DNA of 64,000 nt from contig JAUZRX010000051.1 in NCBI GenBank assembly GCA_030949985.1, forward strand, positions 1 through 64,000, written 5' to 3'. The DNA is from Acidobacteriota bacterium (lineage in GTDB: Bacteria > Acidobacteriota > Polarisedimenticolia > J045). This document shows, piece by piece, positions 1 through 64,000 of this stretch; positions within the stretch are counted from its first letter, which is position 1, and each line of letters opens with the position of its first letter. The notes below the pieces were generated by a model, which saw only the letters and a program-made list of their open reading frames with translations, was not told the origin of the DNA and made no database searches. A program made the translations under genes and the position numbers.

Positions 1-185
1 GCCAGTCCATGCCCCGTGGGAGAGCAAGAGCGGGGCCAGTTTGAACCCGCGCTCGGGCGCGGAGTTTGGGGACGAGGCGTCCGCATGCGGACAGGTGCCG
101 CGGACAGGGTCCGGACACCCCCGGCGGCTTGCGCCCCCCCCGGCCCCCGGGGCCACGGGGTACATTCTTCGCTCCACGGTGGGGG
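1..185. other. window edge, no gene recognised
   Basis: This G+C-rich stretch lies downstream of the minus-strand kinase gene that ends at 186. Short open frames cross it but have no recognisable protein features. A CCCCG/CGGGG-type inverted repeat around 150-165 could belong to the end of the kinase transcript, but there is no U-tract. Nothing else is supported. Confidence 0.4.
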
Positions 186-48730: not shown

Positions 48731-49045
48731 GTGGGGGAGGAGAGAAAGTGGCGGGGCCGCGACAGGGTTGGGTCGGGATTCGGGGAAGCCCTGTACGCGG
48801 CCCCATGCCATCAGGCCGGACCAGCGAGCCTCCGGGGAGCGGTCGGAGGGAGTCGAAAGGAAGCTCGCTGCCTGGTCTGCCAAAACCAGGTTGAGGTCCT
48901 GGGGTATGAAGCTTGCGCGGGAACCCTTTTTGTCCGGGCTCCCGCCGAGGTCCACTCTGACAAGCCTGCCTCTCCATCTGCGAAGAGCGTGCCAGATCCG
49001 CGGTTCGGAGGGGGGTGATCGCCAAGTCCCTGTTCTGACGAAGGA
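48731..49045. ncRNA. candidate structured RNA in convergent gap (family unknown)
   Basis: No protein gene fits. The strongest stem pairs 48753-48767 with 48789-48804 (15 base pairs with one bulged A, 21-base loop). Further potential stems on the same strand are GACCAG/CTGGTC plus CGAGC/GCTCG in about 48818-48886, CTCCG/CGGAG nested inside, CCAGG/CCTGG around 48889-48905, and GCGGGA/TCCCGC around 48917-48945. These could equally be read on the minus strand. No match to RNase P, tmRNA, SRP, 6S or a known riboswitch was recognised. Strand and ends are unknown, so this is only a candidate. Confidence 0.3.
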
Positions 49046-49095: not shown

Positions 49096-53895
<4,800 letters not shown>

Positions 53896-59459: not shown

Positions 59460-59602
59460 CCCCGCAGGAGCCCCGGACACGGGGGCAGGCCCCCATCTTC
59501 CCCCGGGGGATCTTTGCCGGTATGGTGGGGGCGGACAGGAGAGGCATGACGAACGGATGGCACTGACGCTGCTTCGCATCCCACCCGGGCCGGGACATGT
59601 CT

Positions 59603-60896: not shown

Positions 60897-60941
60897 GGGC
60901 TCCGGAGCCCGTCCGGAAAGCGTTGAAAAACCCGACGCCGG

Positions 60942-60962
60942 GGCGCTGAATTTCGCAGCGCC
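60942..60962 (+). terminator. hairpin after nhaA
   Basis: GGCGCTG and CAGCGCC form a perfect 7-bp stem with a 7-base loop, 45 bp after the nhaA stop. The loop is AT-rich (AATTTCG). It could end the nhaA transcript. No U-tract follows. Confidence 0.4.
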
Positions 60963-61048
60963 GACAACCTCCACGTTTGCCGTCACTTGGCCGTCGGCGT
61001 CGAGATCTTTCTTCGGCGCTGTTGAAAAGTTCTGCAGCGAGCCTTGCG

Positions 61049-61060
61049 CAACACGTGTTG
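61049..61060. promoter_or_regulatory. 12-bp perfect palindrome, possible activator-binding site
   Basis: CAACACGTGTTG is fully self-complementary. Its centre is about 82 bp upstream of the transcription start inferred from the sigma-54 promoter at 61111, a usual place for an upstream activator sequence bound by a sigma-54 activator dimer. The binding protein is unknown. Confidence 0.45.
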
Positions 61061-61088
61061 GAGGTACCGTAAGTCATTGGAAAAACGT

Positions 61089-61104
61089 ACGATCATTCAA
61101 TCGT
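61089..61104. promoter_or_regulatory. ACGAT/ATCGT inverted repeat
   Basis: A 5-bp inverted repeat with a 6-base AT-rich spacer lies immediately upstream of the sigma-54-like promoter. It may be a second protein site or part of DNA looping. It is short, so chance is possible. Confidence 0.3.
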
Positions 61105-61110
61105 GACCTG

Positions 61111-61126
61111 TGGCACGACATTCGCA
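61111..61126 (+). promoter_or_regulatory. sigma-54 (-24/-12) promoter
   Basis: TGGCACGACATTCGCA matches the consensus TGGCACG-N4-TTGCW except for one base (TCGCA instead of TTGCA). The invariant GG and GC dinucleotides are present at the correct spacing. Transcription would start near 61137, about 36 bases before the ATG at 61173. Confidence 0.6.
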
Positions 61127-61172
61127 TGTCTCCTGTCCGTCGCGCAAGGGCGCTGCCGGACCTGGAGGTGAG

Positions 61173-61931
61173 ATGTCTGTCTACGCGATTCTCTTCGACC
61201 AAACGTTGTGCGTGGGGTGCCGCGCCTGCGAAGAGGCCTGTCAGCAGGAGAACGGTCACCCCCCCCACGAGGCTCGGCGTCTCGACGCCGACTCTTTCAC
61301 CTGGGTGGAGGACCTGGGTGACGACAACTACGCCCGCCACCTTTGCATGCATTGCGAGAACCCGACCTGTGCTTCCGTCTGCCCGGTGGCCGCTCTGCAA
61401 AAGAGCCCTCTCGGCCCGGTGACGTGGTCGGCCGAACGCTGCATCGGCTGTCGCTACTGCATGCTGGCCTGTCCTTTTCACGTCCCCCGCTACGAGTGGG
61501 ACAGCCCCAACCCCAAGTTGCGCAAATGCCAGATGTGCTTTCCGCGGGTCTCCGCGGGGCAACCCACCGCCTGTTCGGCGGCCTGTCCCGTGGGCGCGAC
61601 CGTTTTCGGCCAGCGGCGGACGTTGCTCGAGCAGGCCCATGCCCGCGTCGAGGCCGATCCGGAAACCTACATGGACACCGTCTACGGAGAGCGGGAGGCC
61701 GGCGGCACGTCGGTGCTGATGCTGCTCGGTCGCTCCGTCGGCGCCGCCCACCTGCCGGGGGACGTTCCGCTCTACGACCTGCCTCGCCTGACCTGGAGCG
61801 TGCTGGAAAAGTTACCGCTGATCATTCCGGTCTGGGGCGTGTTCCTCGGTGGAGTCTACTGGCTGACTCAGCGCCGTCAGGCGGTGGCCCGCGCCGAGGG
61901 CGAGGGGGGGAGAGAGGAGGTGTCCCGATGA
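61173..61931 (+). CDS. HybA/HmcB-like 4x[4Fe-4S] ferredoxin subunit
   Basis: 252 residues. Cys groups for four [4Fe-4S] clusters are visible: CVGCRACEEAC, CMHCENPTCASVCPV, CIGCRYCMLACPF and CQMCFPRVSAGQPTACSAACPVG. A C-terminal membrane helix (LPLIIPVWGVFLGGVYWL) then anchors it. This is the electron-transfer subunit that passes electrons between a catalytic partner and a NrfD-type membrane protein. It overlaps the NrfD-like gene by an ATGA. No twin-arginine signal peptide is seen, so the cluster-bearing domain is probably cytoplasmic or depends on a partner. A sigma-54-like promoter precedes it. Confidence 0.9.
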   Translation: MSVYAILFDQTLCVGCRACEEACQQENGHPPHEARRLDADSFTWVEDLGDDNYARHLCMHCENPTCASVCPVAALQKSPLGPVTWSAERCIGCRYCMLACPFHVPRYEWDSPNPKLRKCQMCFPRVSAGQPTACSAACPVGATVFGQRRTLLEQAHARVEADPETYMDTVYGEREAGGTSVLMLLGRSVGAAHLPGDVPLYDLPRLTWSVLEKLPLIIPVWGVFLGGVYWLTQRRQAVARAEGEGGREEVSR

Positions 61932-63094
61932 GCGGCCGCAAAGTGCGCAGTCCGGGTTTCTGGCCGGGTTTCTTCATTCTGCTGATGATTCTCTTCAGCG
62001 TGGTGCTCGTGCGCCGTTTCACCGGCGGCCTGGGAGCCGTTTCGAACCTCAGCGACGAAATGCCCTGGGGGCTGTGGATCGGCTTCGACCTGCTTTCCGG
62101 CGTGGCTCTCGCGGCGGGAGGCTTTACGATCACCGCGATCGTCTACTTGTTGCACCTGGACCGCTATCGGCCCATCGTCCGTCCCGCCCTGCTGACGGCT
62201 TTCCTGGGCTACCTGATGGTGATCGCGGCGCTGCTGGTGGATCTGGGGCGTCCCTGGAATATCTGGCATCCGCTGATCTTCTGGAATCCGCACTCGGTGA
62301 TGTTCGAGGTGGGCTGGTGCGTGATGCTCTACACGACCGTGCTCTTCCTCGAGTTTCTGCCCCTGGTTTTCGAGCGCTTCCGCATCCAGCGCGCCCTGAC
62401 TCTCTGGAGCCGCTACCTGACGCCGCCGCTGGTGATCGCCGGAGTGCTGCTTTCCACCCTGCACCAATCGTCCCTGGGTACGCTCTACGTCATCGTTCCC
62501 GGGAAGCTGCACCCCCTTTGGTATTCACCGATCCTGCCGCTGCTTTTCTTCGTCTCCGCGATTTCCCTGGGCCTGGCGATGACCAGCGTGGAGTCGTTCC
62601 TCTCCCTGCGCGCCTTCGGCAAACGCCTGGAGCCCGGGATCCTGCGGGGGCTCGGCCGGGCCACCGCGGTGACTTTGCTGCTCTACCTCACCTTGCGTTT
62701 CGAAGATCTCTTCGTGCGTGGTGTGCTCGACCAGGCCTTCCGTTTCGACACGGCCTCGATCTTCTTCCTGCTGGAAGTCGGCCCGGGCGGCATGCTGCCC
62801 ATGCTGCTGCTCTTCAGCAGCCGGGTGCGCCGCCGGCCGTTGGCGCTGCTGGGCGCGCAGCTGCTGGTCGTACTGGGTTTGATTTTTCAGCGCATGAACG
62901 TTGCGATCACGGCCTTCCAGTTGGGTACGGGGGTGTCCTACGTACCTCACTGGCAGGAATTCGTCATCTCTCTCGGCCTGGTCGCCGTTGGTTTTGCTCT
63001 CTTCGCCCTGGCCGTGCGCTTCCTGCCCGTGTTCCCGGAAGGCCCCCTCGCGCGACCGCGCCCCACCGATCCCCTCTCCACGCTGGCGCCCTGA
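61928..63094 (+). CDS. NrfD/HybB-family polytopic membrane subunit
   Basis: 388 residues with about ten hydrophobic helices. WGLWIGFDLLSGVALAAGGFTITAIVYLL, AALLVDLGRPWNIWHPLIFWNPHSVMFEVGWCVMLYTTVLFLEF and LHQSSLGTLYVIVPGKLHPLWYSP are characteristic of HybB-like NrfD family members. It would exchange electrons with the quinone pool. Start ATG 61928 overlaps the preceding stop. No catalytic subunit (hydrogenase, nitrite reductase, molybdopterin enzyme) is in the window, so the enzyme served is unknown. Confidence 0.9.
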   Translation: MSGRKVRSPGFWPGFFILLMILFSVVLVRRFTGGLGAVSNLSDEMPWGLWIGFDLLSGVALAAGGFTITAIVYLLHLDRYRPIVRPALLTAFLGYLMVIAALLVDLGRPWNIWHPLIFWNPHSVMFEVGWCVMLYTTVLFLEFLPLVFERFRIQRALTLWSRYLTPPLVIAGVLLSTLHQSSLGTLYVIVPGKLHPLWYSPILPLLFFVSAISLGLAMTSVESFLSLRAFGKRLEPGILRGLGRATAVTLLLYLTLRFEDLFVRGVLDQAFRFDTASIFFLLEVGPGGMLPMLLLFSSRVRRRPLALLGAQLLVVLGLIFQRMNVAITAFQLGTGVSYVPHWQEFVISLGLVAVGFALFALAVRFLPVFPEGPLARPRPTDPLSTLAP

Positions 63095-63130: not shown

Positions 63131-64000
63131 ATGCCGGGTACAGTCGCCGGAAAACTCACGATCCTCGTCACCGTCTCGCTGATCGTCGTCTTCGGCCTGG
63201 GAACCTGGCTCAACGTGATGATTCAGGAACGGGCCGCGCACACGATCTTGAGCCGGAACGGCGCCAGCATCGCCGACATGATCGCCGGCGCTACGCGGGA
63301 GTCGATGCTGCACAACGACCGGGAACGGATCGCGGCGATGGTCGACTCCCTCGCCCGTCAGCCCGATGTCGAACGCATCCGTATCTTGCGTAAGACCGGC
63401 GAGATCGCCTATTCCACCGTGGCCGAGGAACTCGGCTCCATCCTCGACAGCCGCCTCGAGCAGTGCATCACCTGTCACCAACAGCCCCAGCCCCCCGAGA
63501 TGCTGCCCGCCGCGGAAAGGGTCCGGGTGATCGAGTCCGGTGGTCGCCGGGCCCTGGGCATCACCCGCGTGATCTACAACGAGCCCGATTGCTCCACCGC
63601 CGCCTGCCACGAGCACCGGCCGGACGAAAGACTGCTGGGCATCCTGGACGTTCACCTGGCTCTCGGGCCGTACGATGAAGCCCGCGTGCGCAGCGCTCTG
63701 GAACTGGTGCTGACTTCGGCGGTCGCGATCTTCCTGGTGCTCGTCACCACCATCGTATCCGTGCAGAAAATGGTGCAAGCGCCCGTGCGGGCCCTGATCC
63801 GCGGAGCACGCAAGCTGGGCGACGGCGACCTTTCGGCGCGGGTTCCCGAAACGTCCGATGACGAGATCGGGGAGCTGGCCCGCACTTTCAACCAGCTCGC
63901 GCGGGATCTCGAGATTGCTCGGGGCGAGCTGATGGATTTGACCCAGACTCTCGAAGTGCGGGTCGAACAAAAGACCCGGGAGCTGAAAGAGGCCCAGGAC
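63131..64000 (+). CDS. heme-binding HAMP sensor protein, truncated at window end
   Basis: 290 codons visible, no stop before the edge. An N-terminal membrane helix (LTILVTVSLIVVFGLGTWLNVM), an extracytoplasmic domain of about 150 residues, a second helix (ALELVLTSAVAIFLVLVTTIV), a HAMP domain (ETSDDEIGELARTFNQLARDLE) and the start of a coiled coil (EVRVEQKTRELKEA) are seen. The extracytoplasmic domain contains CITCH (c-type heme site) and CSTAACH (C-x4-CH, unusual), followed by RLLGILDVHLAL. Such domains occur on sensor kinases and chemoreceptors of redox-sensing bacteria. It is downstream of the HybB-like gene (36 bp) with GGAGG before ATG 63131. The output domain lies beyond the window. Confidence 0.8.
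   Translation, partial: MPGTVAGKLTILVTVSLIVVFGLGTWLNVMIQERAAHTILSRNGASIADMIAGATRESMLHNDRERIAAMVDSLARQPDVERIRILRKTGEIAYSTVAEELGSILDSRLEQCITCHQQPQPPEMLPAAERVRVIESGGRRALGITRVIYNEPDCSTAACHEHRPDERLLGILDVHLALGPYDEARVRSALELVLTSAVAIFLVLVTTIVSVQKMVQAPVRALIRGARKLGDGDLSARVPETSDDEIGELARTFNQLARDLEIARGELMDLTQTLEVRVEQKTRELKEAQD

Follow-up and report, generated by a model that had tools for sequence, protein, structure and literature searches.

Two-component systems such as NtrC, ZraSR and AtoSC combine a histidine kinase with a receiver-AAA+-Fis regulator, a -24/-12 promoter and upstream inverted-repeat operators. The locus analyzed here has the same parts, but its sensor is a predicted periplasmic di-heme-c domain, the genes under control form an electron-transfer module, and the operator reads YGTTGAA-N3-TTCAACR and occurs in a fixed three-site layout. 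From sequence comparison, it is very probable that a sigma-54 promoter drives this redox operon and that the operon activates itself, its own two-component regulator acting through three operators.

Individual parts of the locus also have described counterparts. HybA/HybB of hydrogenase 2 and HmcB/HmcC of the Hmc complex place a 4Fe-4S ferredoxin-like subunit beside an NrfD-type membrane subunit, as does this operon. The best Foldseek match of our sensor-domain model was GSU0935 (PDB 3b42), a heme-c sensor that forms the periplasmic domain of a chemotaxis protein from Geobacter; here, however, the domain belongs to a histidine kinase and has a pair of heme motifs, of which one is Cx4CH. The glycine cleavage H protein, GcvH, shares the Pfam domain GCV_H with a protein of the locus that differs by an N-terminal hydrophobic membrane helix and, according to the alignment of the GcvH-like proteins, by the absence of a conserved Lys at the lipoyl position, which was located by the GcvH motif. 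Finally, archaemetzincins (peptidase family M54) have the motif HEXXHXXGXXHC-X4-CXM and a later CXXC (PMC3427221), while the protein found here is bacterial, is encoded in a two-component operon and has its last CXXC preceded by X16 rather than X17.

Composition and distribution of the operon

The window (the whole stretch of DNA analyzed, 64,000 nucleotides long) comprises positions 1-64000 of a 169-kb contig (C51) in a genome of 3.7 Mb. Its plus strand encodes, by homology, a HybA/HmcB-like 4Fe-4S protein (61173-61931) and an NrfD/HybB/HmcC-like membrane protein (61928-63094), followed by a histidine kinase (63131-64000, continuing to contig position 64720). Past the window edge, the same operon continues with genes for an NtrC-type response regulator (C51:64717-66072) and an archaemetzincin (C51:66069-66596). 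A gcvH-like gene on the minus strand, also outside the window (C51, about 66623-67288; L004 8626-9288), is convergent with the operon.

In contrast to HybA/HybB and HmcB/HmcC, no Tat signal was seen in the alignment of the HybA-like proteins, which have a C-terminal hydrophobic membrane helix, and the operon contains neither a hydrogenase catalytic gene nor a cytochrome subunit. The NCBIfam scores were well below the curated cut-offs for HybA (180.7; cut-off, 263), HybB (302; 450), HmcB (239.8; 420) and HmcC (312.3; 550). A link to a hydrogenase was considered and dropped: the large-subunit homolog is located on another contig, outside the operon. The sequence-only reading had described the operon as HybA/HybB plus a heme sensor; the heme sensor held up, while HybA/HybB is supported by homology but not at the curated cut-offs.

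The kinase has a HAMP domain and periplasmic CxxCH and Cx4CH heme-c motifs. The Cys and His residues of both motifs are invariant among 36 aligned sensors, and nearly all of 70 kinase homologs have the two motifs. Two c-type hemes are predicted for the periplasmic domain. A comparison of the sensor-domain sequence with solved structures gave no meaningful match. The domain model (mean pLDDT, 81.6) resembles periplasmic PAS-like sensors, and VIA-align returned WalK as the best match (Z 14.3; rmsd 2.3 over 136 residues).

The regulator consists of receiver, sigma-54 AAA+ and Fis helix-turn-helix domains, which place it in the NtrC family, and its GSFTGA loop could be read. The archaemetzincin exceeded the cut-off of Pfam Peptidase_M54 (56.2 versus 24.4 bits) and narrowly missed that of NCBIfam archmetzin (123.5 versus 145). 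Its HEXXHXXGXXHC-X4-CXM motif recurs in 59 of 64 homologs, and the later CXXC is present.

Homologous loci have the order hybA-nrfD-kinase-regulator-archaemetzincin, usually with the gcvH-like gene first. Their records are labelled Acidobacteria, Krumholzibacteriia, KSB1, Planctomycetota, Ignavibacteriae, Bacteroidetes, Gemmatimonadota, NC10 and others; the record of a same-genus relative (G008, contig L147) is labelled Acidobacteria. When 48 loci were clustered by protein, all families present in at least 45 loci overlapped the module, and the next family was present in 7. The membrane-anchored GcvH-like protein without the lipoyl Lys is conserved together with the module. Nothing relevant to the module or the operator was found in open-licence papers, and the six-gene module (GcvH-like protein, HybA-like protein, NrfD/HybB-like protein, di-heme-c kinase, NtrC regulator and archaemetzincin) is apparently undescribed. 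We lean towards a self-regulating redox module, not previously described, of Acidobacteriota and other phyla, in which the HybA-like, NrfD-like and non-lipoylated GcvH-like proteins would form a membrane complex with a dedicated archaemetzincin, and which its own di-heme-c sensor would switch on by way of a conserved three-operator sigma-54 enhancer.

A predicted sigma-54 promoter conserved among relatives

The sequence-only reading had proposed a sigma-54 promoter, TGGCACGACATTCGCA, at 61111-61126 on the plus strand. Its position, the single mismatch to TGGCACNNNNNTTGCW and the correct spacing of GG (-24) and GC (-12) were all verified, and the site predicts a transcription start at approximately 61137. 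Sites with at most one mismatch and intact GG/GC occurred 4 times in the window, versus 0 to 1 times in shuffles. Genome-wide, the reversed pattern was at least as common as one-mismatch -24/-12 matches, and because of this a single match is weak evidence when taken alone.

The sequence evidence becomes strong once relatives are compared. In G008, the -24/-12 site is kept letter for letter; TGTGGCACGACATTCGCA is shared unchanged with the window, and the flanks diverge further out. We scanned 140 nt of each of 107 regions upstream of homologous operons and detected sigma-54-like sites scoring at least 10 in 27 of them. Shuffles gave 1.2 such sites and reversed sequence 2, and the opposite strand had none; the matrix weights were approximate, and the loci are related, so that the locus counts are not independent. 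No sigma-70-like site was found ahead of the operon. Furthermore, the genome encodes RpoN, the absence of which had been named as evidence against the promoter. The comparisons indicate that a real sigma-54 promoter, conserved across several bacterial phyla, serves the HybA/HybB-like and heme-sensor operon.

Probable operators upstream of the promoter

Comparison of the upstream regions and subsequent refinement yielded a 17-bp inverted repeat, YGTTGAA-N3-TTCAACR. Its seed was picked by eye from these same regions and then tested by spacer variation, shuffling and hold-out. The pattern TGTKGA-N5-TCMACA, with at most two mismatches, had 75 sites at spacer 5, versus 5.35 in shuffles; the same half-sites at other spacers (0 to 12) had 3 to 18 sites each. 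All positions of the 64-kb window were then scored with a matrix from the training of which the window and G008 had been held out. The best score (18.9 bits) was that of the promoter-proximal operator (UAS) copy 3, TGTTGAAAAGTTCTGCA (61020-61036; approximately -117 to -101), and the second best (16.4 bits) that of copy 1, CGTTGAAAAACCCGACG (60921-60937; approximately -216 to -200). Copy 2, CGCTGAATTTCGCAGCG (60944-60960; approximately -193 to -177), is weaker (10.0 bits) and able to form a hairpin. The counterparts of copies 1, 2 and 3 in G008 are CGTTGAGAATCACCACA, CGCTGAATTCTTCGACA and CGTTGAAAGAATCAACA, respectively.

The layout of the operators is conserved as well. At the hybA promoter of the window, the distance from copy 1 to copy 2 is 23 bp and that from copy 2 to copy 3 is 76 bp, and the start of copy 3 precedes the -24 element by 91 bp; the corresponding distances in G008 are 23, 99 and 91 bp, the last being equal in both. 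The gcvH-like gene has its own sigma-54 site and matching operators, spaced by 22, 77 and 90 bp, and the gcvH-like promoters of Krumholzibacteriia show 23, 77-78 and 81-91 bp. Spacing classes of 20-25, 76-83 and 97-106 bp were above random placement. At least two operators were present in 41 of 60 loci with a regulator ortholog (the other 19 had fewer than two) but in only 1 of 21 loci without one. Since the operators co-occur with the in-operon NtrC-type regulator, the circuit is most likely autoregulatory. In the open-licence literature, we found no described operator that matches YGTTGAA-N3-TTCAACR in a fixed three-site layout.

In Krumholzibacteriia loci L139-L143, operators lie ahead of hybA with no clear -24/-12 site there; ahead of the gcvH-like gene of L139, L141 and L143, operators and a -24/-12 site are both present.

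Alternative explanations

The sequence-only reading had assigned the enhancer role to a perfect 12-bp palindrome, CAACACGTGTTG (61049-61060), and pointed to an activator gene at 49096-53895. The palindrome is indeed present, with its center near -82 relative to the inferred start, a plausible distance for an enhancer, and the 49096 gene encodes a true sigma-54 activator (protein kinase-TPR-GAF-AAA+-Fis). Nevertheless, a promoter driven through CAACACGTGTTG by this or another unlinked activator is very unlikely. The window contains 39 perfect 12-bp palindromes, a number at chance level (30-49 in shuffles), and G008 has CAAGATCACCCG where the window has CAACACGTGTTG. The exact palindrome is unique in the genome, and with its loss in G008 it was discarded as a regulon marker. 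Because the genome has about 26 strong sigma-54 activator domains, one of them within the operon, the nearness of the 49096 gene counts for little, and it is the in-operon regulator that co-occurs with the operators. Since CAACACGTGTTG is lost in G008, occurs at chance frequency and lies in a region explained by other operators, it is probably not the enhancer. The repeats at 60921, 60944 and 61020 are most likely the enhancer sites instead, identified by comparing relatives and not from one palindrome; it is at the level of sequence that the promoter has such sites.

The same repeats could serve partly for repression, or be bound by another NtrC-family protein of like specificity, so that sigma-54 control would be real without being simple positive autoregulation. 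This is unlikely: although a Krumholzibacteriia operator lies near -60 of hybA, where no -24/-12 site is found, and operators are missing from some regulator-bearing loci, those of the window are all upstream of the conserved -24/-12 site, the usual enhancer position. We regard it as extremely improbable that the -24/-12 match is fortuitous, the operon using another sigma factor and the repeats being hairpins or remnants of an nhaA terminator. The genome-wide frequency of the reversed pattern, the hairpin capacity of copy 2 and one weak terminator-like match are in line with that explanation, but the positional enrichment of sigma-54-like sites across relatives and the failure to find a sigma-70-like site argue against it. 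Moreover, the repeats are still present upstream of the G008 locus, where no nhaA homology was detected.

Proposed circuit

The conservation of the promoter, the conservation and spacing of the operators and their co-occurrence with the regulator were observed directly, and on them we base the following model of autoregulation by the in-operon regulator. The membrane histidine kinase, with two c-type hemes presumably attached in the periplasm, would sense a redox condition or a ligand and phosphorylate the adjacent NtrC-type response regulator. The phosphorylated regulator would bind the 17-bp operators at 60921, 60944 and 61020, form an AAA+ oligomer and, by looping to RNA polymerase-sigma-54 at 61111-61126, open the promoter. 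Transcription from the predicted start would then increase for hybA-like, nrfD-like, kinase, regulator and archaemetzincin genes, and the convergent gcvH-like gene would be coactivated through its matching operator set. For an electron-transfer module that is widespread, the model thus names a regulator and an operator that can be tested together, and it offers a route to what this module senses and does.

Other sites in the genome

The sequence-only reading had suggested looking for other -24/-12 promoters that share the activator. Among 30 other sigma-54-like sites checked, none had a convincing operator copy nearby. In genome-wide searches with operator patterns, most of what came up was chance palindromes within coding sequence; among the matches listed, only 60921 and the site before the gcvH-like gene were recognized as promoter linked. 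One sigma-54-like site (L025; C10:111352) has a different palindrome, TGTTGCAAGCTGCAACA, at approximately -123, possibly the operator of another activator.

Within the window, a good -24/-12-like site lies ahead of the nhaA antiporter gene (59558-59573, plus strand), without the 17-bp operator. Another (48979-48994, minus strand) is intergenic and lies immediately downstream of the activator gene at 49096-53895. At the start of the window (23-38, minus strand), TGGCCCCGCTCTTGCT was found; copies of it lie close to the ends of about ten contigs of the genome, and it thus marks a repeat at which the assembly breaks.
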